DNA of 64,000 nucleotides from Streptosporangium sp. NBC_01495 (lineage in GTDB: Bacteria > Actinomycetota > Actinomycetes > Streptosporangiales > Streptosporangiaceae), in the NCBI RefSeq assembly GCF_036250735.1, contig NZ_CP109430.1:8990001-9054000 (forward strand), in the 5' to 3' direction. Position numbers and translations under genes: made by a program. This document shows positions 2,620 through 13,442 of this stretch, piece after piece (the first letter of the stretch is position 1; each line of letters begins with the position of its first letter). A model generated the notes under the pieces. It was not told the DNA's origin. It saw only the letters and a list, made by a program, of their open reading frames with translations, and ran no database searches.

Positions 2620-3561
2620 CTACCGCACGCGGATCTCGCCCACGGGACGCCCCCCGCCGAGCAGGACCCCGGCGGCGAGCTCGTCGAGCCCGGGGGCCTC
2701 GAAGCCGAGAGCGGTCAGGGCCGCGACGGTGACCGGGACCCGGGCGCGCTGGCCGCCGTCCTCGACCTTGACGGTTCCCGAGCGCCCGTCGGTGAAGACG
2801 AAGGCGTCGAAGGCCTCGGCCCCGGCCTTGACCAGCAGTCCGGGGACCGCCCGCATCAGCCGGGCCTCGGGGCGGGTGGTCCCCGACGTCCACTCGGGGT
2901 GGGCGCGGAAGGCGTCGGCGACGCGGCGCTCCGGGGTGTCCCGGTCGGCCCGGACAAGGGCGCGGAACGCCCGCGTCACGCCCAGCATCGAGACGAAGAA
3001 CAGCGGGGCGCCGCAACCGTCCACCCCGCTGGCGGCGACGCGCTCGCCGGTCAGCTCCTCGATCGTGGCGCGTACGGCCCGCTGCAGCGGATGCGCCGGG
3101 TCGAGGTAGGTCTCCGGCGGCCAGCCGTTGGCCACGCAGGTGGCGAGCATCGCCGCGTGCTTGCCCGAGCAGTTCATGTAGACCCTGGCCCGGCCCCCTC
3201 CTGAGCGCAGCACCTCGTCGCGGGAGGCGACGTCCTCCGGCAGGTCCTCCGGGCAGCCGAGCGCGCTCTCGTCCAGACCGGCCCCGGCCAGGATCCTGCG
3301 TACCCCGTCCACGTGGAACGGCTCCCCCGCGTGACTCGCGCACGCCAGCGCGAGCAGTTCCCCCTCCAGCGGGAGCCCGGCGCGGACCATGGCGAGCGCC
3401 TGCAGGGGCTTCATGGACGAGCGCGGCGACACCAGGGCGTCCACCTCCCCGTGGACCCTCACCAGCGACCCGTCGGCCGCCACCGCGAGCATCCGCGCCC
3501 GATGGGTGGACTCCACGAACCCCGAACGGACAACCTCGACGAACAATGACTCAGCAGACAC
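2620..3561 (-). CDS. Asparaginase II-family protein
   Basis: The product (313 residues) matches the asparaginase II family (PF06089), a group distinct from the classical AnsA/AnsB enzymes and linked to L-asparagine hydrolysis in rhizobia. Conserved stretches are SPRSSMKPLQA near the N-terminus, CASHAGEP, YMNCSGKHAAM, GVDGCGAPLFF and the C-terminal KVEDGG. The GTG at 3561 is preceded by AAGGAG at a 6-nt distance, which fixes the start. It is divergent from dtd, with only 57 bp between start codons, so the promoters overlap. It is a probable cytosolic amidohydrolase; substrate not proven. Confidence 0.82.
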   Translation of the reverse strand: MSAESLFVEVVRSGFVESTHRARMLAVAADGSLVRVHGEVDALVSPRSSMKPLQALAMVRAGLPLEGELLALACASHAGEPFHVDGVRRILAGAGLDESALGCPEDLPEDVASRDEVLRSGGGRARVYMNCSGKHAAMLATCVANGWPPETYLDPAHPLQRAVRATIEELTGERVAASGVDGCGAPLFFVSMLGVTRAFRALVRADRDTPERRVADAFRAHPEWTSGTTRPEARLMRAVPGLLVKAGAEAFDAFVFTDGRSGTVKVEDGGQRARVPVTVAALTALGFEAPGLDELAAGVLLGGGRPVGEIRVR

Positions 3562-3618
3562 CTTTGTCTCCTTTCGTCCGAAGTCTAGGGATGCCCGGGA
3601 GCACGGGATGATGAGGGT

Positions 3619-4044
3619 ATGCGTGCGGTCGTACAGCGGGTGAGTTCCGCGTCGGTGGTGGTGGACGGCGTGACGGTCGGGGCGATCGACGAGCCGGGGC
3701 TGCTGGTCCTGGTCGGCGTGACCCACACCGACACGCGCGCCGAGGCGGCCAGGCTCGCCGCCAAGCTCTGGGGCCTGCGGATCCTCTCCGGCGAGAAATC
3801 CTGCTCCGACATCGGCGCGCCACTGCTGGTGGTCAGCCAGTTCACCCTGTACGGCGACGCCCGCAAGGGCCGCCGTCCCACCTGGCAGGCAGCCGCCCCC
3901 GGGCCGGTCGCCGAGCCGCTGGTGGAGGCGGTCTGCGCCGAACTGCGCGGGCTGGGTGCCCGGGTGGAGACCGGGGTGTTCGGTGCCGACATGAAGGTCG
4001 GGCTGACCAACGACGGCCCGATCACCCTGGTCCTGGACATCTGA
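3619..4044 (+). CDS. dtd: D-aminoacyl-tRNA deacylase
   Basis: This 141-residue protein is full length for Dtd. It hydrolyses D-amino acids (and glycine from tRNA-Ala) mischarged onto tRNA. Visible signatures are the N-terminal [13 protein letters not shown] strand, the catalytic SQFTLYGD motif (about residues 74-81) and the C-terminal [10 protein letters not shown], which supplies the Gly-cisPro-type pocket together with the GRRPTW loop. The ATG follows closely on the divergent asparaginase promoter region. Its neighbour ygfZ lies downstream on the other strand. Confidence 0.95.
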
Positions 4045-4309
4045 GCCGCCCGAGGCCGTACGCGCCCCGCAAAGCCGGTGCGGCCGGGAACCACGGCATC
4101 CGGGAAAGCCGGTGCGGCCGGAGACCGTGTCACGACACCCGGGAAAACCGGAACGGCCCGAGACTCTGACGGCGACATCCGGGCACTTGACGGCGGGAAG
4201 GCCCAAGTGCCCGGAGACCAGGACGGTGCCTGGAAACCGGGGCGCGACATCCGGGCATGCCGGAACGGCCCGCCCCGGACGCGACACCGTCGGATGTCAG
4301 CGTCGGATG

Positions 4310-5293
4310 TCAGCGGAGGCGGCGGCGCAGGCTCGGGTCGATCTGGACGTTGCGCCCGGCGTCCGGCGGCACGATGACCTCCTGGGACGCGGCCACCCCT
4401 CCGGCCTCCAGCGTGGCGTCCACCGGCACGGTCCGCTTCACCACGGCCAGCGCGACCGGGCCCAGCTCGTGATGGCGCGCCGAGCTTCCCACGAAACCGA
4501 TCTCCGCGCCGTCGAGGGTCACCGGGGTGCCGTGCTTGGGCAGGGTGTCGACGCTGCCGTCCAGGTGCAGGAAGACCAGGCGGCGGGGCGGATGGCCCAG
4601 GTTGTGAACGCGGGCCACGGTCTCCTGGCCCTTGTAGCAGCCCTTGTTGAGATGGAGGGCCGAGCCGATCCAGCCCACCTCGTGCGGGATCGTCTTGTGG
4701 TCGGTCTCGAAGCCCAGGCGGGGACGGTGCCCCTCGATCCGCAGCGCCTCGTACGCCCAGAGCCCGGCGAGCCTCAGCCCGAGCCGCCCGGCCAGCAGGT
4801 CGCGTGGAAGCAGGATGTCCCTGCCGACGGCGACGGCCCCCTCGGGCAGGTCGGGGTGCGCCTCCCCCGCCACGGAGACCACGGCGTAGCGGTCCGTCAC
4901 GTCGGCGACCTCGACCCTCAGCATGAACCGCATCTTGTCGAGGAACGCGGCCACCTCCGCGCCGGTGCCCGGCTCGACGTGGGCCCACACCGCCTCGCCG
5001 TCGTCGACGAGGACGAGGTGGTGCTCCACCCTGCCCTGGGCGTCCAGCAGCAGCGTCTCGGTGGGCCGACCGGGTTTCAGGTCGTCGAGTTTCTGCGAGC
5101 TGAGGCTGTTGAGCCAGCTCAGGCGGTCGGGCCCGGAGATCCGGACGACCTCGCGGTTGCTCCGGTCGACCATCGCCTCTCCGGCGAGCAACGCGCGCTG
5201 CTCGGCGAACGGGTCGCCATAGTGTCCGGCGACGTCGGCGTCGGGGGTCTCAGCCGCGACCGCGCCGGGAGTGTCCAGCAGAGGGCTTCGCAT
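4310..5293 (-). CDS. ygfZ: Folate-binding YgfZ/CAF17-like protein
   Basis: The product (327 residues) has the GcvT-like N-terminal fold with SGPDRLSWLNSLSSQ and the diagnostic KGCYKGQE motif (about residues 205-212) of YgfZ/IBA57 proteins. These use folate and assist iron-sulfur cluster assembly or repair of a subset of Fe-S enzymes. The ATG at 5293 is preferred; an in-frame GTG lies 6 nt upstream. It is divergent from the RNA ligase gene, 150 bp away. From memory, Streptomyces carries ygfZ next to nur and dtd; here the RNA-repair genes separate ygfZ from the nur-like gene. Confidence 0.88.
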   Translation of the reverse strand: MRSPLLDTPGAVAAETPDADVAGHYGDPFAEQRALLAGEAMVDRSNREVVRISGPDRLSWLNSLSSQKLDDLKPGRPTETLLLDAQGRVEHHLVLVDDGEAVWAHVEPGTGAEVAAFLDKMRFMLRVEVADVTDRYAVVSVAGEAHPDLPEGAVAVGRDILLPRDLLAGRLGLRLAGLWAYEALRIEGHRPRLGFETDHKTIPHEVGWIGSALHLNKGCYKGQETVARVHNLGHPPRRLVFLHLDGSVDTLPKHGTPVTLDGAEIGFVGSSARHHELGPVALAVVKRTVPVDATLEAGGVAASQEVIVPPDAGRNVQIDPSLRRRLR

Positions 5294-5443
5294 ACACACA
5301 GCCTACGAGGCCCCACCGGTGCGAACGGCAGCGGCTCCACCCGCTCTTCACGCGGTTCGAGCAGGAGCGCAGTTATTGTGTGGATCCGCCGCATCGCCTC
5401 CCATACAGTCGCCGCAGCGCGACTTCGTCATCGGGAGCAGATC

Positions 5444-7348
5444 ATGCGAGTGCCCTACCCCCGCACTCCTCATCTGCCCTGGTCTCCGGGGGTCGCCTCG
5501 GACGACGTACGTGCCGGCGGCCTGGCGGGGCTGGTGGGCCGGGAGGTCGTCGTCACCGAGAAGCTCGACGGGGAGAACACCACCCTGTACCAGGACGGGA
5601 CGCACGCCCGTTCGCTGGATTCGGCGCACCATCCGTCCCGCGCGTGGATCAAGGCCCTGCACGGCAGGATCGCCCGGTTCATCCCTCCGGGCCGGCGGGT
5701 GTGCGGCGAGAACCTCTACGCCCGGCACTCGATCGAGTACCGGGATCTGGAGAGCTGGTTCTACGCCTTCTCCGTCTGGGACGGCGACCACTGCCTCGAC
5801 TGGGACAGGACGGCACGCCTGACCCGGCGGCTGGGAGTCCCGGTCCCCCCGGTGCTGTGGCGCGGCGTTTTCGACGAGCGGGCGCTGCGGGCCCTGCGCC
5901 TGGACACGGCGCGGCAGGAGGGATACGTCGTGCGGACCGTCGACGGGTTCCACCGGGAGGAGTTCGCCCACCGCGTCGCCAAATGGGTGCGTCCGCGCCA
6001 TGTCCAGACGACCGAGCACTGGATGCTCGCGCCTGTCGTCGAAAACGGCCTGGGCCCGGTCGCGGCACTGTGGGACGTACGTTCGGGAGCCGATCCGGAC
6101 GTGCCGGCGCTCCTCACCGCGACGGGGGTGACGGCCGGAGCCGACCCAAAGGTATCGGCGCTTCTCACCGCGACGGGGGTGACGGCCGGCGACCTGGCGG
6201 GACACGCGACACCGGAGGCCGCCGGTGTCCACGCCGCCACCGCGCCGCCCGGATGGAGATTTACGGCCGGTGGCCCGGCGAGGCCCGCGCCGCCGGAGGC
6301 CGCCGTCGAGCGCGCCGAGGCGGCCGTGGCCGATGTCTCCGCCAGGCTCGACCTGCTGGGCCGGACGGGGGACGCCCGGCTGGAGGGCGTCATGGCCGCC
6401 CTGTTCCAGGGCACGCGCCGGGCCTGGCTGGCGCCCGCCCTGGTGGCCCCCCTCGGCATGCCCCTGGCGCGGCGGGTCGCCGACCTGGTCGAGCTGCACC
6501 CCCGCCTGCACCGCGACTTCCCCGACGAGGCACGCAGAACCGGCCTGGTACGGCTGGCCGTCGCGGCCGACCTGGGGGTCCTGCACGCGGTCGCCGCAGC
6601 GGCGCTGGCCGGGCGCGCCGACGATGACGCCGCCGACGCGCGCGAGCAGGTCGCGTGGTCGGAGCTCCACGCCGATGAGGCCGGTCTGCTCGGCGAGGCG
6701 CCGCTGGAGCCGCTGCGCCTGGGCCTGCGCCAGGCGCTCGGCGACTGTGAACCCGAGGTGGCGGACCGGTGCTGGGCCGAGACCCGGGAGGCCTACGCGC
6801 TGGGCCGGATCACCACGGCCGAGGGGGGTCTGGCGCTGAGCCGTCGATGGCGGTCCGGCGGGTTCCCCCGGCTCGTCGTCATGGTCGGCCCGTCGGGCAG
6901 CGGAAAGAGCACGTTCGCCGGAAACCTCACGGACACCGGCGCCGTCGTCGCGCTCGACGACCTGCGTCAGGCGCGTGGATCCCGATCCGACCAGCGGGCC
7001 AACCCGGCGATCCTCCGCGAGGGCCTGCACCGGCTCGACGCGCTCCTCGCCGCCGGTGGAACCGTCGTGTGGGACGCCACGGCCCTGAACCGGCACCAGC
7101 GCTCCCTGGTGCACACCGTGGCCCGAGGACGCGACGCGCTGACGACGCAGGCGGTCATGCTGGTCCCCGGCGACCTGCTGGCCCGACGTAACGCGAGCCG
7201 TACGCACCCGGTGCCGCCGGAGGTGCTCTCGGCCCAGCTTCGCCGCTTCTCCCCACCCTGCGCGGGAGAGACGCACCGCACCTGGTACATCGGGCCGGAG
7301 GGGGACGTCCTCGACGTCGCCGGAGCCCTTGACCGCGATGGGGGATGA
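5444..7348 (+). CDS. RNA ligase fused to polynucleotide kinase
   Basis: The 634-residue product combines two RNA-repair activities. Residues about 1-230 are a T4 Rnl2-like RNA ligase with the adenylation motif EKLDGEN (lysine 40), a GENLYA motif and a downstream EGYVVR plus VAKWVRP, corresponding to nucleotidyltransferase motifs I, III, IV and V. A mostly helical middle region follows, with an internal tandem duplication of an ALLTATGVTAG segment. Residues about 475-634 form a P-loop kinase (GPSGSGKST starting near 482, DDLR, and an RRNASR lid). Predicted role: kinase heals the 5'-OH and ligase seals. ATG 5444 has GGGAG 8 nt upstream. The stop is followed 3 nt later by the next gene, so the two are co-transcribed. 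Confidence 0.85.
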   Translation: MRVPYPRTPHLPWSPGVASDDVRAGGLAGLVGREVVVTEKLDGENTTLYQDGTHARSLDSAHHPSRAWIKALHGRIARFIPPGRRVCGENLYARHSIEYRDLESWFYAFSVWDGDHCLDWDRTARLTRRLGVPVPPVLWRGVFDERALRALRLDTARQEGYVVRTVDGFHREEFAHRVAKWVRPRHVQTTEHWMLAPVVENGLGPVAALWDVRSGADPDVPALLTATGVTAGADPKVSALLTATGVTAGDLAGHATPEAAGVHAATAPPGWRFTAGGPARPAPPEAAVERAEAAVADVSARLDLLGRTGDARLEGVMAALFQGTRRAWLAPALVAPLGMPLARRVADLVELHPRLHRDFPDEARRTGLVRLAVAADLGVLHAVAAAALAGRADDDAADAREQVAWSELHADEAGLLGEAPLEPLRLGLRQALGDCEPEVADRCWAETREAYALGRITTAEGGLALSRRWRSGGFPRLVVMVGPSGSGKSTFAGNLTDTGAVVALDDLRQARGSRSDQRANPAILREGLHRLDALLAAGGTVVWDATALNRHQRSLVHTVARGRDALTTQAVMLVPGDLLARRNASRTHPVPPEVLSAQLRRFSPPCAGETHRTWYIGPEGDVLDVAGALDRDGG

Positions 7349-7351
7349 GGG

Positions 7352-10300
7352 ATGAGCATGCGGACGAGCGAGGAGATCTTCCACCGGATCCGCTGGGATC
7401 CACGGTTCGACCCGGCGCGGTTCGTCCTGGGGATAAACGTGCGCGGGGCCTCACCCAAACGCGTGCCGCTGCCCGCGTTCGTCCCCGGAGGTGACATTCC
7501 CTGGCACCGGATCCTGTTCGTCGAGGCGGACGGTGAGACGGTCTGGGACCGGTCGGCGGGCCTGGACCTCATCGACTCGTCACAGGCCGGGCGGGTGCGG
7601 GATCCGCGCAGGCTCCGGGCGCCGTTCTTCACGGCCAGGACGCCGTTCGCGTGGGATCCGGTCGCGGGCTGGCGTCCCGTGTCACCCGTGCCGCCCGGGT
7701 CGGCCGGGTCGACCGGGTCGGCCGGGTCGGCCGGGTCGACCGGGTATGCGCCGACCGCGACACACCTGCGCGTGCTGACCTGGAACACCCTGTGGGACCG
7801 CTACGACAGCGACCGGCTGGACACCGCGCGGCGCCGTCCACTGCTGCTGGAGGAGCTGGAGCGGGCCGACGCGGACGTCATCGCGCTGCAGGAGGTCGAG
7901 GCCGAGCTGCTCGGCATGCTGCTGCGGACCCCGTGGATCCGTTCCGCGTACACGCTGAGCACCGATCCCACGGGCCGGGACGTCGACGACGACGGGCTCC
8001 TCCTGCTCACCCGCCTGCCCGTGCTGGAGGCGGGCCTGCACGCCCTCGGCCCGCACAAGGCCGTCACCGCCGTCACGGTGGAGTCGTCCGCCGGACCGAT
8101 CGTGGTGGCCGTCACGCATCTCACCAGCGATCACTCCGACAACGGTCCCGCCCGGCGTGGAGCCGAGCTGGCCCGGCTCGCCGAGGTGCTGCTCGGCGTG
8201 GACGGAGACGTGATCCTGCTGGGCGACCTCAACGACGGCGGGAGCGGGCCCGCCAAGGTGCTGGGCCTGCGGGACGCCTGGACCGAGATCCACGGCCCCG
8301 GCGACCTGACCGCCACCTTCGATCCGGGAGTCAATCCGCTGGCGGCCCTCTCCTCTCTCTCCGGCCGCGCGTCGCGGCTCGACCGCGTGCTGCTGCGCGG
8401 CCACGACCTGCGGGTCACGGCCGCGGCTCTGCGGGGCGACTCCCCGGCGCCCGGCGGCCTGTTCGTGTCGGACCACTACGGCGTCGCCGTGGACATCACC
8501 GCCGGCGAGAGCGGGTACGACTCCCCCGAATCCCCCGGCGTCCCCGGTTCCCCGAGGGCACACGGCTCCTCCGGGATCCGCGGTTCGGCAGGGGCGCACG
8601 GATCCTCGGGGACATTCGACTCCTCCGGGATCCGCGGTTCGGCAGCGGCACACGGCTTCTCCGGCACCCACAGCTCTTCAGGGATCTCCGGCATCCCCGG
8701 CGTCCTCGGCGCGCGGCCGACGGCGCGGACGGCCGTGGCCTGGATCCCGCCGGTGGAGTTCTGGCCGGTGATCCAGGAAATCCGCCGGGAACACGACCCC
8801 CAGAGCCACCGGTGGCCACCGCATGTCACGGTGATGTTCGGTTTCGTACCGGAGTCCGGCTTCGAGGAGGCGGCTCCCGTCCTGGCCGCCGCCGTGGCCG
8901 CGATCTCCCCGTTCACCGCCCGGCTGCGAGGCGTGCGCGCCTTCTCCCATCGTGACGGCTCCACGGTCTGGCTCGACCCGGCATCGGGCGGGCCGGAACC
9001 CTGGGCCGCGCTGCGTGCCTCGCTGGAGCGCGGTTTCCCGAACTGCCGGGGCCGCTCCGACGGCTACACCCCGCACCTGACCCTGGGGAGGGTCCGGGAT
9101 CCCGAACGGTTCGCCGCCGGCTGGGAGACACGGCTGGGCGACGGGACGGCGCCGGTCGGCGAGCTGGTCCTGCTGTCACGCCGGGGCGAGGAGCCCATGC
9201 GGCCCCGGGCGACCGTCGCTCTCGGAACGGGCGAGGTGCGCTGGCTCGACCACGGGACATACCCACCCGGCGCCCTGCCGGACCCGGCGCGTACCCCGGG
9301 GGACGGCCACGACGAGGACGATTCCCGGGAGAGGGAACGTCGCGGGGAGGCTCGGGCCCGGGAGGTCGTGCAGCGGCTGCGGTCCTCCCTGGCGGAGGGG
9401 GTCGTCCACGTCGCCGGGTCACGGCGTCTGGGCTGCGCCCTGGCCGACGCGGACCTGGACCTGGTGGCGGCGCTGCCCTCGGCGGCCGATCTCACAGACG
9501 TCGAGGCACGGGTGAGGGCGGCTCTGCCGGAGGCGACCGGGTTGCGGCGCGTGATCGGCGCCAGGGTGCCCGGCCTCCGGTTCCGGGTCGGGGACCTGGA
9601 CGTCGATCTGGTCGTCGTGCCGGTCACAGTCGTCACGACGTCCACAGACACCACCGGGGGCCTGTCGAACACGAACACCGCCGGGGCCACAGGGAGCACG
9701 TCGATCACAAGGATCACTGAGGTCACAGGAGACACGGCGGTCACGGACACCGCCGGGGTCACGGACATCACGGCGGTCACGGACATCGCGGGGGCCGCGA
9801 ACGTCACTCCCGCCGAGGCGGTGTCGCGCCGCGTCGAGCTGGGCGAGGCTTCGGCGATCGCACTGAGCGCGGTCAGCGACGCCGACGCGGTGCTCGCCTC
9901 GGTCGGCGAGCACCGTGCCGCCTTCGTCGGACTGGCCCGGGAGGTGAAGGCGTGGGCGAGGGCGCGCGGGCTCGACTCGGCTCCGTTCGGAGGGCTGCCG
10001 GGTCTGGCCTGGACCGTCCTCGCGGCGCGTACGGTGCGCGAAGCCGGAGATCTCCCCTCGGACGACCTGCTCCGTCACTTCTTCGGCACGTGGGCCGCGT
10101 GGGACTGGCACCGGCCGATCAGCCTCCGGCCGGAGGCTCTCAAAGGTGCACCAACCGGCCTGAACAGCCCGGCGACCAATCCAGGCGAACCACCGATCGG
10201 GGCGGACGGACCGCCGGAGGGATCGGATGGGCCGGCGAGGTCGGACGGACCGGCAAGGTCAGACAGACCGGATAGACCGGACGGATCGGGCAGATTCTCG

Positions 10301-10816
10301 GACGGGTCAGCAGACGGAAGCTTCGGCGCGGCTGTGTCGATCATGACCCCCACGGCCCCCGTCCGCCTGTGCAGCGAGCAGGTCGGCACCGGTGGACGAG
10401 ATCTCCTGACCCTGGAGTTCTACAACGCGTGGGAGATCGTGGAGGCGGCGTCGGAGGTCGGCCGGGACCCCCGGCCCGAGTTGCTGTCGGCACCGCCGTC
10501 GCACCGGCGGCACGCCGCGTGGGCGGTGGTGACCGTGAAGGTGGGGAAAGCCGAGAGGTTCGACGTGACGCTGGGCCGCGTGCGGGGCCGGATGCGCGCG
10601 CTGCTCACCTCCCTGGAACGCGCGGGGGTGCGGGACGCGCACGCCTGGCCCCGGCCCTTCGAGACCGGCCCGGGAATCGCCCGGTACGCCGTGGGCCTCG
10701 GCCGCACGCCGCCGGACGCGGCCGGGCTCACCGAGATCACCGCTCCGTGGGCGGCGGGCCTGCGCGGAGTCGGCGTCGAGTGGACGGAGGGCGGCGAGGT
10801 GCCGACACTTCGCTGA
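7352..10816 (+). CDS. MJ1316-EEP-2H-poly(A)polymerase RNA-repair multidomain protein
   Basis: This 1154-residue protein strings RNA end-processing domains together. Residues about 5-80: MJ1316/DUF504 domain (RIRWDPRF, IPWHRI, VWDR), proposed to recognise cyclic RNA ends. About 137-385: endonuclease/exonuclease/phosphatase fold (LTWNTLWDR, ALQEVE, GDLND, SDHYG). About 458-633: 2H phosphoesterase (LigT type) with both histidine motifs, PHVTVMF near 490 and PHLTLGR near 574. About 668-926: nucleotidyltransferase of the poly(A)/CCA type (GSRRLGC, DLDLV, then DVDLVVV), followed by a helical and a C-terminal RNA-binding-like region to 1154. Four low-complexity linkers (near 112-130, 386-452, 765-815, 930-990) separate or interrupt domains. 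Likely opens 2',3'-cyclic phosphates and adds nucleotides for the ligase encoded just upstream. Confidence 0.82.
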   Translation: MSMRTSEEIFHRIRWDPRFDPARFVLGINVRGASPKRVPLPAFVPGGDIPWHRILFVEADGETVWDRSAGLDLIDSSQAGRVRDPRRLRAPFFTARTPFAWDPVAGWRPVSPVPPGSAGSTGSAGSAGSTGYAPTATHLRVLTWNTLWDRYDSDRLDTARRRPLLLEELERADADVIALQEVEAELLGMLLRTPWIRSAYTLSTDPTGRDVDDDGLLLLTRLPVLEAGLHALGPHKAVTAVTVESSAGPIVVAVTHLTSDHSDNGPARRGAELARLAEVLLGVDGDVILLGDLNDGGSGPAKVLGLRDAWTEIHGPGDLTATFDPGVNPLAALSSLSGRASRLDRVLLRGHDLRVTAAALRGDSPAPGGLFVSDHYGVAVDITAGESGYDSPESPGVPGSPRAHGSSGIRGSAGAHGSSGTFDSSGIRGSAAAHGFSGTHSSSGISGIPGVLGARPTARTAVAWIPPVEFWPVIQEIRREHDPQSHRWPPHVTVMFGFVPESGFEEAAPVLAAAVAAISPFTARLRGVRAFSHRDGSTVWLDPASGGPEPWAALRASLERGFPNCRGRSDGYTPHLTLGRVRDPERFAAGWETRLGDGTAPVGELVLLSRRGEEPMRPRATVALGTGEVRWLDHGTYPPGALPDPARTPGDGHDEDDSRERERRGEARAREVVQRLRSSLAEGVVHVAGSRRLGCALADADLDLVAALPSAADLTDVEARVRAALPEATGLRRVIGARVPGLRFRVGDLDVDLVVVPVTVVTTSTDTTGGLSNTNTAGATGSTSITRITEVTGDTAVTDTAGVTDITAVTDIAGAANVTPAEAVSRRVELGEASAIALSAVSDADAVLASVGEHRAAFVGLAREVKAWARARGLDSAPFGGLPGLAWTVLAARTVREAGDLPSDDLLRHFFGTWAAWDWHRPISLRPEALKGAPTGLNSPATNPGEPPIGADGPPEGSDGPARSDGPARSDRPDRPDGSGRFSDGSADGSFGAAVSIMTPTAPVRLCSEQVGTGGRDLLTLEFYNAWEIVEAASEVGRDPRPELLSAPPSHRRHAAWAVVTVKVGKAERFDVTLGRVRGRMRALLTSLERAGVRDAHAWPRPFETGPGIARYAVGLGRTPPDAAGLTEITAPWAAGLRGVGVEWTEGGEVPTLR

Positions 10817-10960
10817 TCACACCCCGGCCCGGGTGGCCCGGCCGAGAGTGGGCCCCCGTCCTCGCGCGTCGACGCCGGAAACCACCGAGGCGGTCGCGTC
10901 CAGCGGGTGCTCGGCGCCCCTACCGGTACGCGCCGAGCGTCGCGGCCCTCGGGACGATCG

Positions 10961-11377
10961 TCAGTCGCGGCAGTTTCGGCAGCGGCCGAAGACCGTCAGA
11001 TGGTGCACGTCGGTGAGGAACCCGAGTTTCTGATCGAGGTTGCCCACGAAGCTCTCCACCAGGTCGGGACTGACCTCGCTGATCTCCCCGCAGCCACGGC
11101 AGACCAGGTGCACATGATCGGCCTCGGCCGTCAGGTGATAGGTGGGGGCGCCGTGCCCGAGGTGGGAGTGGGTGACCATGCCGAGCTCCTCAAGGAGCTC
11201 AAGGGTCCGGTAGACGGTCGATATGTTCACCCCGCGCGCGGTCTCCCGCACCCGGGTGCAGATCTCTTCCGGGGTGGCGTGCTCGCAGGCCTTGACCGCC
11301 TCAAGCACCAGCTGGCGTTGCGGAGTGACCCGGTAACCGCGCGCCCGTAGTTCCTCATGCCACGACGTCTCGGTCAT
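10961..11377 (-). CDS. nur: Fur-family metalloregulator, probably nickel-responsive Nur
   Basis: This 138-residue Fur-family repressor has a winged-helix N-terminus (GYRVTPQRQLVLEAV, NISTVYRTLELLEELG) and a dimerisation domain with the metal-ligand segments HGAPTYH, DHVHLVCRGC and VHHLTVFGRCRNC. The two CxxC pairs give the structural zinc site. The AHLGHGAPTYHL-type stretch and the HLVCR motif closely resemble Streptomyces Nur, and synteny with ygfZ and dtd supports that call, but Zur or PerR-like function cannot be excluded from sequence. Expected targets are nickel transport and superoxide dismutase genes, none of which are in the window. It is convergent with the RNA-repair operon across 144 bp. 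Confidence 0.75.
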   Translation of the reverse strand: MTETSWHEELRARGYRVTPQRQLVLEAVKACEHATPEEICTRVRETARGVNISTVYRTLELLEELGMVTHSHLGHGAPTYHLTAEADHVHLVCRGCGEISEVSPDLVESFVGNLDQKLGFLTDVHHLTVFGRCRNCRD

Positions 11378-11898
11378 ACCAAGAGTCTATGAGCACCGGG
11401 ACTCTCCTCGTCGTTCTCCAGCCCGAGACGCCGAAGAACAACGGGCCGGTGCTCGAAGCAGAGCCCTACCGCCGAAACACGAGAAGCCCGGCCCATCATG
11501 GCGGCCCGCACCGGCGTAAAGCGCTTCGGCGCGGACGAAGGGGAGCGGGACGGCTCGCTCGGAGTCACCGGGCTCGGGGTGGGCGAACGGAAGGCGGCTC
11601 GACACTCCGGAGGATCTGGATCACTTCGAGTTAGGCCCGTCGAGGTCGATGTCCACCTGGCGGAGCCCCAGCGGCCCCCGCCGGGGCTCCATTGACGATC
11701 TTCACTGCGCCCCCACGACCCAATCGATCGATCGGTTGGCTCCACGGGATCCAGGCGTGATCAAGACGGTCGAATCCCCGAATCCATTTCGCCGGGAAGC
11801 CTGAAATCTCCTGTACACGGAAGTTCACACCTCATTGAGAAGCCGATGTTCGCTTGACCCGATCCCGCTGGACTGGCTATCGTCTCTCAATCGATCGA
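11378..11898. other. Intergenic region with operator-like palindrome
   Basis: There is no convincing gene in these 520 bases. Short open frames on both strands lack family features and look like GC-driven noise. The region carries the upstream side of nur and, at its right end, the promoter area of the TetR-amidohydrolase operon, including two related palindromes described separately. Confidence 0.5.
11720..11739. promoter_or_regulatory. Palindromic operator candidate, copy 1
   Basis: The 20-bp sequence CCAATCGATCGATCGGTTGG is an inverted repeat with one mismatched pair. It shares the CAATCGATCGAT core with a second perfect palindrome 170 bp downstream at the TetR gene start. The pairing of two such sites beside a TetR gene suggests autoregulation; no binding is shown. 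Confidence 0.4.
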
Positions 11899-11901
11899 TT
11901 G
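11888..11901. promoter_or_regulatory. Palindromic operator candidate, copy 2, at TetR start
   Basis: CAATCGATCGATTG is a perfect 14-bp palindrome that overlaps the probable TTG start codon (11899-11901) of the downstream TetR gene. Repressor bound here would block transcription start or early elongation of the operon. Confidence 0.45.
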
Positions 11902-12576
11902 GGAACGCCTTTGAAGCATACGGAGATCCAGCAGGCGGCGGTCCGGCTGTTCGCTCAGAAGGGGTACGCCGCGACCGGTATTCGCGAGCTCGGACGTGCC
12001 GCGGGCATCAACTCCGCGACCTTGTACCACTACGCGGGAGGGAAGGAGGAGATCCTCTCCGGCATCATGCGCTCGTGCCTTGACGAGCTGCTGCGCTCCG
12101 CGATCGACGCGGTCGGCGCGTCGGCCGATCCGGGCATTCAGCTGGCGCGCCTGGTAAGGGCGCACGTGGGACTGTCCGCGCTCAATCCGTTGACAGCCAG
12201 GGTGACCGACCAGGAGATGCGCGCCTTGACGTCGGAGGACCGCGAAGCACTTGTCGGCATGCGTGACGACTATGAATCGATCTTCGCCAAGGTCATCGAA
12301 CGCGGCGCACGCACGGGCGCCTTCCAGCTCACCGATCTACGCCTCGCCCGGCTGGCGCTTCTGGAGATGTGCAACGGAGTCGCCAACTGGTACCGGCCGG
12401 ACGGGCGACTCGATGTCGCCGACGTTCAGGACCGGTTCGTCGAGTTCGCCTGCCGTCTCGTCGGGGTGCCGCCGGTGAGTCGCGAGGAGTCCGGAGATCT
12501 GCCGGTTCCAACTCGGCTGGCCAGCGAGCCTGCCGCTGACCACATGCTCACAGCAGGCATGGAGGCCGCAGGATGA
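11899..12576 (+). CDS. TetR/AcrR-family regulator
   Basis: The product (about 225 residues) has an N-terminal TetR helix-turn-helix (IQQAAVRLFAQKGYAATGIRELGRAAGINSATLYHYAGGKEEI, shown here only as the segment from about residue 8 to 50) and a helical ligand domain. The start is uncertain: TTG codons at 11854, 11899 and 11911 are in frame, none with a good Shine-Dalgarno. 11899 is preferred because it leaves a normal short N-terminus before the helix-turn-helix and abuts a palindrome. The stop overlaps the amidohydrolase start by ATGA, so this regulator heads a three-gene operon that it probably controls. Confidence 0.8.
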   Translation: MGTPLKHTEIQQAAVRLFAQKGYAATGIRELGRAAGINSATLYHYAGGKEEILSGIMRSCLDELLRSAIDAVGASADPGIQLARLVRAHVGLSALNPLTARVTDQEMRALTSEDREALVGMRDDYESIFAKVIERGARTGAFQLTDLRLARLALLEMCNGVANWYRPDGRLDVADVQDRFVEFACRLVGVPPVSREESGDLPVPTRLASEPAADHMLTAGMEAAG

Positions 12577-13442
12577 ACATCATCGACGCCCGGGTACGGC
12601 TCCCCCAGGAGCTCCGGCCCAGTCCCACCTATGCCGCTCCCAGTCTGCAGACCGAGCAGTACGACAAGGTTCTGCAGCTGACCGACAAGATGAACACCGG
12701 CCGCCTGGCCGACCTGCTCCAGGTCATGGACGCCGAAGGCATCGGCCGGGCGGTCATGCACGCCGAGTCCGAGGGGGGCGAATCGGCCGACGCGCTCAAC
12801 GAGGCACTGTGCCAGGTCCTGGCCAGGCATCCCGACCGGTTCACGGGCATCGGATGTGTCGACATCGCCGGTGCCCGGCCGACCCGTATCGCCCGGCAGA
12901 CGGCCTCGATCGCCGGCCTCGGTCTGCTCGGGATCACGTTCCAGCCCGCGTTCTTCGGGCTCGACATCGACGATCGCGGCCTCTACCCGATGTACTCACG
13001 TGCCGAGGAACTCGGCCTGATCGTCGCCGTGCACACGGGCATCACCTACAGCCGCATGCACCCTCTGCGCCACGAACGGCCGGAGCTGCTGGACCAGGTG
13101 GCCTGCGACTTCCCCGACCTGACGCTGATCGCCTGCCACGCCGGTTGGCCCTGGGTGACCGAGTACTGCGCGGTGGCGCGCCGTCACCCGACGGTCTATC
13201 TGGAGTTCGGCGCTCTGGCGCCGAAGTATGTCGCCAAGGCCGGGACCGGCTGGGACCCGCTGTTCGGCATGATGCCCAACGTTCTGCGTGATCAGGTGCT
13301 CTACGGCAGCGACTGGCCCATGATGTCCCCCACTCGTGCCGTCGCGGAATGGCGGGCCTCGGGATTGCCGGACGCGGCGCTCCAGGCCCTCCTGCATGAC
13401 AACGCCGCCCGGCTCTTCGGACTCGGAAGCCCATCGCGGTGA
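12573..13442 (+). CDS. Amidohydrolase-2 family protein lacking N-terminal HxH
   Basis: The 289-residue product fits the amidohydrolase-related PF04909 family (TIM-barrel hydrolases and decarboxylases). Family landmarks are AVHTGI (about residue 150), CHAGWPWV (about 188) and YGSDWPMM (about 246), which provide later metal-site histidines and aspartate. The usual N-terminal metal pair, seen as D-x-H-x-H, is replaced by DARVR at residues 5-9, as in some decarboxylase-like members, so metal use may differ. It overlaps the TetR gene (ATGA) and the acyl-CoA ligase gene (GTGA), implying translational coupling and a shared degradative pathway. Substrate unknown. Confidence 0.78.
   Translation: MNIIDARVRLPQELRPSPTYAAPSLQTEQYDKVLQLTDKMNTGRLADLLQVMDAEGIGRAVMHAESEGGESADALNEALCQVLARHPDRFTGIGCVDIAGARPTRIARQTASIAGLGLLGITFQPAFFGLDIDDRGLYPMYSRAEELGLIVAVHTGITYSRMHPLRHERPELLDQVACDFPDLTLIACHAGWPWVTEYCAVARRHPTVYLEFGALAPKYVAKAGTGWDPLFGMMPNVLRDQVLYGSDWPMMSPTRAVAEWRASGLPDAALQALLHDNAARLFGLGSPSR

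Follow-up and report, generated by a model that had tools for sequence, protein, structure and literature searches.

A ligase–kinase fusion and its multi-domain partner as a candidate RNA end-healing and sealing module in Actinomycetota

What would a bacterium do with an RNA ligase fused to a polynucleotide kinase, encoded directly before a protein that strings together MJ1316, EEP (endonuclease/exonuclease/phosphatase), 2H phosphoesterase and poly(A) polymerase (PAP) domains? The question is raised by two adjacent genes, here gene 1 and gene 2, in a 64,000 nt stretch of Streptosporangium sp. NBC_01495 (contig NZ_CP109430.1; host genome of 11.1 Mb, labelled G000), hereafter the window. Both lie on the + strand, with 3 nt between the end of the gene 1 stop codon (7348) and the start of gene 2 (7352), as a first-pass annotation had described when it proposed a two-gene RNA repair system. 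Judged from its sequence and distribution, the pair is probably a laterally acquired module for RNA end healing and sealing. Toxins may be the cause of the damage, by analogy with Pnkp1–Rnl–Hen1 as described in the accessible part of its report (PMC4411300).

The ligase–kinase fusion seen in gene 1 by the first-pass annotation is well supported, with K40 in TEKLDGENT and the P-loop GPSGSGKS at residues 482–489. A hidden Markov model check of the N-terminal part as an adenylating ligase matched the ATP-dependent RNA ligase family (PF09414, Table 1), and motifs I (KxDG), III, IV and V are present in a numbering assigned in this analysis. Across 81 aligned rows, made up of the window and 80 homologous loci, the ligase residues K40, D42, G43, E89, E159, G160 and K180 are invariant. 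The kinase residues K488, D505 and R582 are likewise found in 81/81 rows, D505 as catalytic Asp and R582 as LID Arg by our own assignment, and S489 is replaced by T in two rows. Gene 1 thereby has the P-loop 5'-kinase features of the HD-PNK (DRB0098) type; the best PDB match of the kinase domain (E 9.7e-5) is a bacterial chain named metallophosphoesterase, which we take to be a Pnkp kinase domain.

Pfam likewise recovers in gene 2 all four of the predicted domains. The EEP residues N145, E181, H256, D292, N294, D344, D374 and H375 and the PAP aspartate triad D701, D703 and D752 are invariant in 71/71 clean rows, that is, the 81 rows minus eight that have no 2H domain, L056, which is damaged, and L101, which has a frameshift. 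The window carries both 2H motifs, as HVT and HLT. Of the 72 rows with a 2H domain, 60 carry HxN and 12 carry HxT as the first motif (position T493); the 71 clean rows have HxN (59) or HxT (12) as the first motif and HxT (57), HxS (13) or HxA (1) as the second. The 2H family is known for HxT/S motifs, and HxN as the prevailing first motif is unusual for it. In their known families the 2H and PAP domains act on RNA, as MJ1316 does by prediction, and it is because of these three domains that RNA appears to be the substrate. MJ1316 is said to recognise 2',3'-cyclic ends in the available portion of one paper (PMC6514570).

For two of the domains the first description needs adjustment. The annotation's 'EEP phosphatase' stands as an EEP domain, while the phosphatase activity is a guess, since the nearest solved relative is TDP2, a phosphodiesterase. 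Conversely, 'poly(A)-polymerase-like' was correct and understated. A PAP profile built from 25 homologues matched human PAP gamma in the PDB at E 1.9e-36 over profile columns 18–324 of 371 (the last part is uncovered), and nine distinct poly(A) polymerase sequences, from 1.9e-36 to 6.3e-25, came ahead of any other polymerase (0.0017). The match spans the catalytic and central domains and extends into the RNA-binding domain, so that by profile comparison the gene 2 PAP is of canonical eukaryotic type.

The first-pass annotation had suggested looking for the pair across actinobacteria, and there the two genes prove closely tied. A contig scan with gene 1, from which the best 80 of 407 relatives were used, returned Actinomycetota in all 80 cases, and gene 2 follows gene 1 in 80/80 of these best loci, a pairing that is not chance. 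The start and stop codons overlap by 1 nt in 50/80 loci and the spacing runs from -14 to +67 nt in 79/80, L116 being unreadable. A natural single-chain fusion in L116 (one 1585-amino-acid frame) was considered and rejected as unreliable because of a frame break in the kinase. Among 100 related genomes, full-length gene 1 occurs in 10, with gene 2 adjoining in each, and a search of the same genomes with a 385-amino-acid piece of gene 2 found it in 11, these 10 and G030; gene 2 is shortened to MJ1316–EEP in G052 and frame-broken in G012. MJ1316 occurs in 11/100, identical to the holders of gene 2, and in 2/14 control genomes, both archaea. Of 396 genomes drawn across the phylum, only three have the fused gene 1 (G000 itself, G081 and G445), and G299 has the ligase domain only. 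Within the 80 loci MJ1316 and EEP were matched in 80/80 (the EEP of L056 is partial), parts of PAP in 77 and 2H in 71. In the sister species Microtetraspora fusca and M. malaysiensis gene 2 consists of MJ1316 and EEP only, with PAP absent, and these domain losses leave ligase, kinase, MJ1316 and EEP as the core.

The most informative comparison is with Deinococcus radiodurans, whose plasmid MP1 encodes an 'RNA ligase family protein' with a ligase domain 55% identical to that of gene 1 and the catalytic lysine likewise at K40. Its gene is the first of a three-gene set, followed by a PARG and an AAA/HD kinase, which we take to be DRB0100–DRB0099–DRB0098, names that are missing from the MP1 annotation shown. 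That equation is made because gene order and domains agree with the accessible parts of two studies of the operon (PMC1997131, PMC11833690). According to the first of these, DRB0100 carries bound AMP that is lost in K40A, and DRB0098 has a kinase activity that converts DNA 5'-OH to 5'-phosphate (PMC1997131); in the available text of the second, later one, DRB0100 is still without a proven substrate (PMC11833690). The kinases of the two systems are of the same Pfam type, and the HD half of a profile of DRB0098 and two relatives matches the middle of gene 1. The present system differs in its ligase–kinase fusion, in having lost the HD ligands, in having no PARG and in the additional gene 2. While 18 Deinococcus records match the ligase, the genus is missing from the eight plasmid records that match gene 2, in a search that did not extend to its chromosomes.

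Pfam gave no HD match in the middle of gene 1. When a profile of this region (22 homologues) was aligned by hhalign with the N-terminal halves of the three HD kinases, the resulting probability was 96.3% (E 1.6e-9, 161 columns), against 0.1 and 0.2% for two unrelated control pairs. In another alignment all 81 rows have gaps at the HD-motif Asp and at the next His (H112), none has His at position H143 (79 have L), and 52 have a gap at the first His. Three of the seven aligned ligand positions chosen in this analysis, the HD Asp included, are thus lost in all rows, and gene 1 lacks the set of HD metal ligands of the HD-PNK (DRB0098) type. The middle of gene 1 is probably a relic HD-phosphatase domain that has lost catalysis and kept part of its fold, the HD phosphatase presumably being the ancestral state.

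From these parts a sequence of steps can be proposed. Damage by a ribotoxin, the supposed trigger, would leave a 2',3'-cyclic phosphate and a 5'-OH. Gene 2 would handle the 3' end: MJ1316 would dock on the cyclic end, 2H would open the ring, EEP would clear the phosphate left behind or a different blocking group, and PAP would restore lost nucleotides. The gene 1 kinase would phosphorylate the 5'-OH, and the ligase, charged as K40-AMP, would join the 5'-phosphate to the 3'-OH. The order of these steps and the joint action of the two proteins are likewise our supposition. The ancestor may have been a pair like DRB0100/DRB0098 with the 3' step performed by the HD phosphatase; the HD domain would now be a non-catalytic spacer, gene 2 having taken over the 3' work. 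A bolder extension, which we put forward tentatively and consider doubtful, is that gene 2 is the missing partner postulated by Blasius et al. for DRB0100-type ligases. A eukaryote-like protein would then hand finished 3' ends to a ligase that is inert alone, the eukaryotic-type PAP would rebuild rather than mark RNA, and the conserved promoter described below would be the target of a regulator able to detect RNA breaks.

The relationship with Deinococcus also opens a different account, in which the substrate is DNA. The EEP profile found TDP2 as its best PDB match (4.9e-8), with beta-hemolysin entries also matched, and TDP2 is a DNA adduct phosphodiesterase. The pair might then repair DNA strand breaks, with EEP as a TDP2-like adduct remover, in the manner of the radiation-induced DRB0098–DRB0100 operon, itself initially interpreted as DNA repair. 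This idea gains from the upregulation of DRB0100 by gamma irradiation and from the action of DRB0098 on DNA ends, as reported in the accessible part of that study (PMC1997131). We nevertheless consider DNA end healing distinctly unlikely: 2H and MJ1316 are associated with the 2',3'-cyclic ends of RNA and PAP with its 3' ends, Pfam names the ligase RNA_ligase, and in that same text DRB0100 sealed no DNA (PMC1997131). A DNA-damage regulon was tried as a candidate and rejected, LexA and PafBC-type patterns being found in 0/79 upstream regions, which is a weak test given 0 or 1 of 237 background segments; the 79 regions come from 78 of the 80 loci (L059 and L077 could not be anchored) and the window.

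Returning to an acquired RNA repair module, the genomic site supports the accessory nature that the first-pass annotation had given it. The annotation placed the pair between ygfZ and nur as an insertion, and a Fur-family gene does directly precede ygfZ in 14/16 genomes of the genus, while in the other two, G000 and G008, the module lies between them on the opposite strand. The flanking ygfZ is confirmed by TIGR03317 and the other flank by its Fur family (PF01475); the name nur is unsettled, NCBIfam matches being below their cut-offs. Two of the 14, G012 and G015, hold the module elsewhere, so that 4/16 in the genus carry it. Bases just before ygfZ are common to the window and the undisturbed site of G003, which places the insertion near the stop codon of the Fur gene; no repeat was seen at the insertion in the short stretches compared, and integrases were not searched for. 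In three Acrocarpospora loci (L057, L063 and L086) the module adjoins the Fur gene on its other side. A single clade of Streptosporangiaceae in the gene 1 tree is rejected (approximately unbiased (AU) test, p 8.7e-6), which together with the variable site fits lateral transfer. In four Streptomyces loci (L099, L105, L109 and L119) the module lies near apparent ribosomal protein genes, at about 0.4–4.9 kb as judged by eye.

The region upstream of gene 1 carries a recurrent promoter-like element. An expectation-maximisation (EM) search of the 79 upstream regions converged on TTATTCGRTGGA at about -71, which at a score of at least 12 was found in 70/79 regions and in 7/2238 control segments, with TAnnnT following after 19 or 20 nt in 70/70 scoring regions; these rows also served to train the matrix, and loci that are related do not count as independent. 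Training on the 36 non-Streptomycetaceae rows, which include the window and one unassigned row, recovered 38/43 Streptomycetaceae regions, 38/38 with TAnnnT, against a control of 39/2580. In the reverse direction EM settled on the -10 half (CCTACAGTGAC), found in 17/36 against 11/2160.

Searches within genomes for a wider regulon gave a mixed result. The window copy of the two-part pattern is the best match in its own genome, the sole G000 site with two mismatches. The 12-mer with two mismatches gave 295 sites there against 133 for the reversed control, possibly a codon effect, and no module-like promoter was seen among 30 of these sites (drawn from the first part of the 295), a check valid for plus-strand sites only. 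With a 19-nt gap and three mismatches the two-part pattern gave, as sites/reversed control, 10/5 in G000, 17/5 in G008, 2/3 in G015, 4/5 in G003, 13/7 in G014, 9/8 in G002, 9/3 in G058, 1/3 in G081 and 10/0 in G445. These settings recover the module's own site in G000 and, with three mismatches, in G445. They miss it in G008, G015, G058 and G081, in part because the gap is 20 nt in many of the copies.

An element conserved across families would suit a host function, and one could suppose that a particular host RNA is the target, which the pair would mature or edit, for instance through circularisation or tailing, and that toxins play no part. The PAP, which exceeds what sealing needs, and the lack of a recognised recurrent conflict gene nearby point the same way. 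Such programmed processing is nonetheless unlikely in our estimate, as patchy presence (4/16 in the genus, 3/396 across the phylum), apparent lateral movement and recurrent domain loss suit an accessory trait better, and Rfam gave no match within positions 3500–13000 at E up to 1.

How the proposed repair module compares with known systems bears on what it may repair. Burroughs and Aravind (2016) reportedly surveyed RNA-repair modules. Those modules are alike in general make-up, with ligase, kinase, end-healer and nucleotidyltransferase, in the accessible parts of two papers (PMC6514570, PMC7824862), one of which names the nucleotidyltransferase RlaP, a different family from the PAP here as far as its name alone sets it apart (PMC7824862). 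Hen1–Pnkp (Pnkp1–Rnl–Hen1) similarly combines a kinase, 3' healing and an ATP-dependent ligase, and works on ribotoxin-cut tRNA in vitro in the available text of its report (PMC4411300). By Pfam our pair is without the Hen1 methyltransferase and the Pnkp phosphatase domain, has PAP added and presumably relies on EEP and 2H for 3' healing; gene 1 scores 42.9 against the Pnkp model, whose cut-off is 750. RtcB/RtcA repair has a presumably similar purpose and a different ligase superfamily, and neither an RtcB nor an RtcA domain is found in the pair. Stand-alone RNA ligases of jumbo phages (phrog_34045; Xanthomonas phage XacN1 ORF260) are about 50% identical in the ligase over residues 2–203. None of the 32 phage records covered 80% of gene 1 and none matched gene 2 at 1e-5. 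In IMG/VR, where 101 relatives were found, 80 of the 101 show no match past residue 252 among the matches listed, so these viral relatives have no kinase. Literature searches gave no title treating this gene pair among the matches listed, subscription papers being outside their scope.

The anti-toxin role in the first-pass annotation has fared less well than the domain assignments. Neighbours were clustered across the 80 loci from heuristic ORFs, taken from at most 7 kb on the 5' side of the module and some 4 kb on its 3' side; of the families found in at least four loci, 30 were read by eye and four were scanned with Pfam. No third gene recurring across clades beside the pair emerged. PADLOC 2.0.0 gave no match to gene 2, and what it gave for gene 1 was confined to a weak match with mad3 over 20 residues at the P-loop (E 0.0028), so that a role against toxins is as yet unsupported and may be suggested by analogy. 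Recurrent neighbours belong chiefly to one Streptomyces clade (a Nudix gene in 13/80 loci, of which this clade accounts for 12) or are of general kinds, namely ABC ATPase, aldo/keto-reductase-like and short-chain dehydrogenase genes, and a linked toxin or third gene was rejected as a candidate on these grounds.

Several observations weigh against an acquired RNA end-healing and sealing module, or against parts of it. Inspection of the neighbours, mostly by eye, revealed no recognisable toxin gene next to the pair. The host already has Hen1–Pnkp (L041 2891–7349; TIGR04074 681 bits and TIGR04075 1335 bits, above cut-off) and five RtcB matches in four places (6046114, 2012941, 9665395 and 1778382), with two long frames of 410 and 427 amino acids. 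His is still present opposite two of the HD positions, at H87 in 58 and at H144 in 56 of the 81 rows. The AlphaFold models are poor, with a mean confidence (pLDDT) of 48.8 and 56.5 for the two proteins; that of gene 1 is too weak for use, and the weak gene 2 model agrees with TDP2 and PAP. The 2H domain, which cyclic ends would supposedly require, is missing by Pfam in eight clean rows, at least six changes on the gene 1 tree by a quick method, in a count from which the damaged L056 was excluded. ANGEL2, of the EEP superfamily, removes 2',3'-cyclic phosphates, and an ANGEL2-like EEP would account for the loss of 2H. An ANGEL2-type role was set aside and is kept as a possibility, since the EEP profile, searched against the PDB, matched TDP2 and beta-hemolysin entries, with neither ANGEL2 nor CCR4 among its matches at E up to 0.01. 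The accessible part of the Deinococcus study adds that DRB0100 ligated neither DNA nor RNA in vitro, that in combination with its operon partners it did not ligate DNA either, and that DRB0098 HD-motif mutants retained the phosphatase activity of the preparation, which leaves the 3' step of that operon unsettled (PMC1997131). As DRB0100, the nearest characterised ligase relative found, sealed nothing there, sealing by gene 1 cannot be presumed; of the sealing chemistry first proposed, the ligase domain stands and RNA end healing with sealing is the most likely function, while sealing itself is not assured (PMC1997131).

Gene 2 also occurs apart from gene 1, which counts on the same side. G030 carries it (L248 6757–9465) without gene 1 in the fetched stretch, and the cyanobacterium Calothrix brevissima has, on a plasmid classed as conjugative, a gene 2 of the same architecture and with a stronger PAP_central score (1.7e-29), with no gene 1 match at E up to 10 within the 17.8 kb covered there. 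Such solitary copies would favour a decay process, in which broken 3' ends are trimmed and A-tailed by gene 2 so that the fragments go to degradation, the ligase–kinase being secondary. On the same side stands Streptomyces coelicolor, whose tailing enzyme is apparently PNPase and whose PcnB-like protein is a tRNA nucleotidyltransferase, in the available part of that study (PMC8208693). We judge tagging for decay very unlikely. The two Microtetraspora species are without PAP yet keep ligase, kinase, MJ1316 and EEP, the ligase–kinase is kept in 80/80 best loci, though these were found through gene 1, and the gene 2 search found both genes in 10/11 genomes. Another contig of G030 carries a separate ligase and HD kinase of the Deinococcus kind (L040 5992–7885), an arrangement that is possibly an intermediate state. 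Four Streptomyces plasmids match pieces of gene 2 only (7 to 24%; L207, L208, H45–H48), one near transposase genes, and these are perhaps decayed copies of the module.

Table 1. Features of the module and its flanks (positions in the window)
Feature	Position	Strand	Basis
Gene 1: RNA ligase–probable relic HD–polynucleotide kinase fusion, 634 amino acids	5444..7348	+	ORF, Pfam, alignment
Likely ribosome-binding site of gene 1, GGGAG, 6 nt before ATG	5433..5437	+	sequence, inferred
Adenylating RNA ligase domain, Pfam residues 33–182 (K40, E89, E159, K180)	5540..5989	+	PF09414 E 3.5e-33
Helical middle, probable relic HD phosphohydrolase domain, ~residues 290–470	6311..6853	+	hhalign
5'-Polynucleotide kinase domain, residues 477–605 (K488, D505, R582)	6872..7258	+	AAA_33 PF13671 E 4.6e-20
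Gene 2: predicted multi-domain end-healing protein, 1154 amino acids	7352..10816	+	ORF, Pfam
MJ1316 domain, residues 3–67, predicted recogniser of RNA 2',3'-cyclic ends	7358..7552	+	PF04457 E 4.4e-17
EEP domain, TDP2-like, residues 142–375	7775..8476	+	Exo_endo_phos PF03372 E 2.4e-18
2H phosphoesterase domain, residues 466–613 (H491xT, H575xT)	8747..9190	+	2_5_RNA_ligase2 PF13563 E 1.1e-33
Predicted poly(A) polymerase of canonical eukaryotic type, with catalytic, central and RNA-binding domains	9329..10816	+	PDB profile; PAP_central 862–928 E 6.4e-8
Promoter-like element: TTATTGTGTGGA 5373–5384, 19 nt, TACAGT 5404–5409	5373..5409	+	EM motif
Flank: ygfZ	4310..5299	-	TIGR03317 96.6 bits vs cut-off 49
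Flank: Fur-family regulator (nur-like)	10961..11377	-	PF01475; NCBIfam matches below cut-offs

Some further features of the loci may be recorded here. Tandem DNA repeats in gene 2 encode low-complexity linkers (7695–7745, 8559–8686, 9664–9794 and 10223–10289), two of them within the PAP part, and in the seven aligned orthologues these are mostly missing or replaced by other linkers. A second RNA ligase, of the OB-fold plus RNA_ligase type, follows the module by 1.1–1.4 kb in 5/80 loci (L101, L102, L104, L112 and L120; ~12.8–14.1 kb). The same make-up is seen on MP1 in an 'RNA ligase (ATP)' (L204 10839–11867), about 2 kb beyond the kinase gene, which we take to be DR_B0094. Together with Hen1–Pnkp and RtcB, the module brings the RNA repair gene sets of the Streptosporangium host genome to three kinds.

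New in this analysis are the grouping with DRB0100, the probable HD relic, the canonical type of the PAP, the repeated 2H changes against a constant MJ1316 and EEP, and the recurrent promoter-like element. The family offers a ligase–kinase fusion together with its natural partner for probing DRB0100-type ligases, and the loss of the HD ligands leads to a clear prediction on which of the two proteins heals the 3' end. A PAP of apparently eukaryotic type within a bacterial repair protein bears on RNA tailing in bacteria, which in S. coelicolor is apparently the work of PNPase according to the accessible part of that study (PMC8208693), and the natural domain losses provide ready minimal versions of the module for biochemistry.

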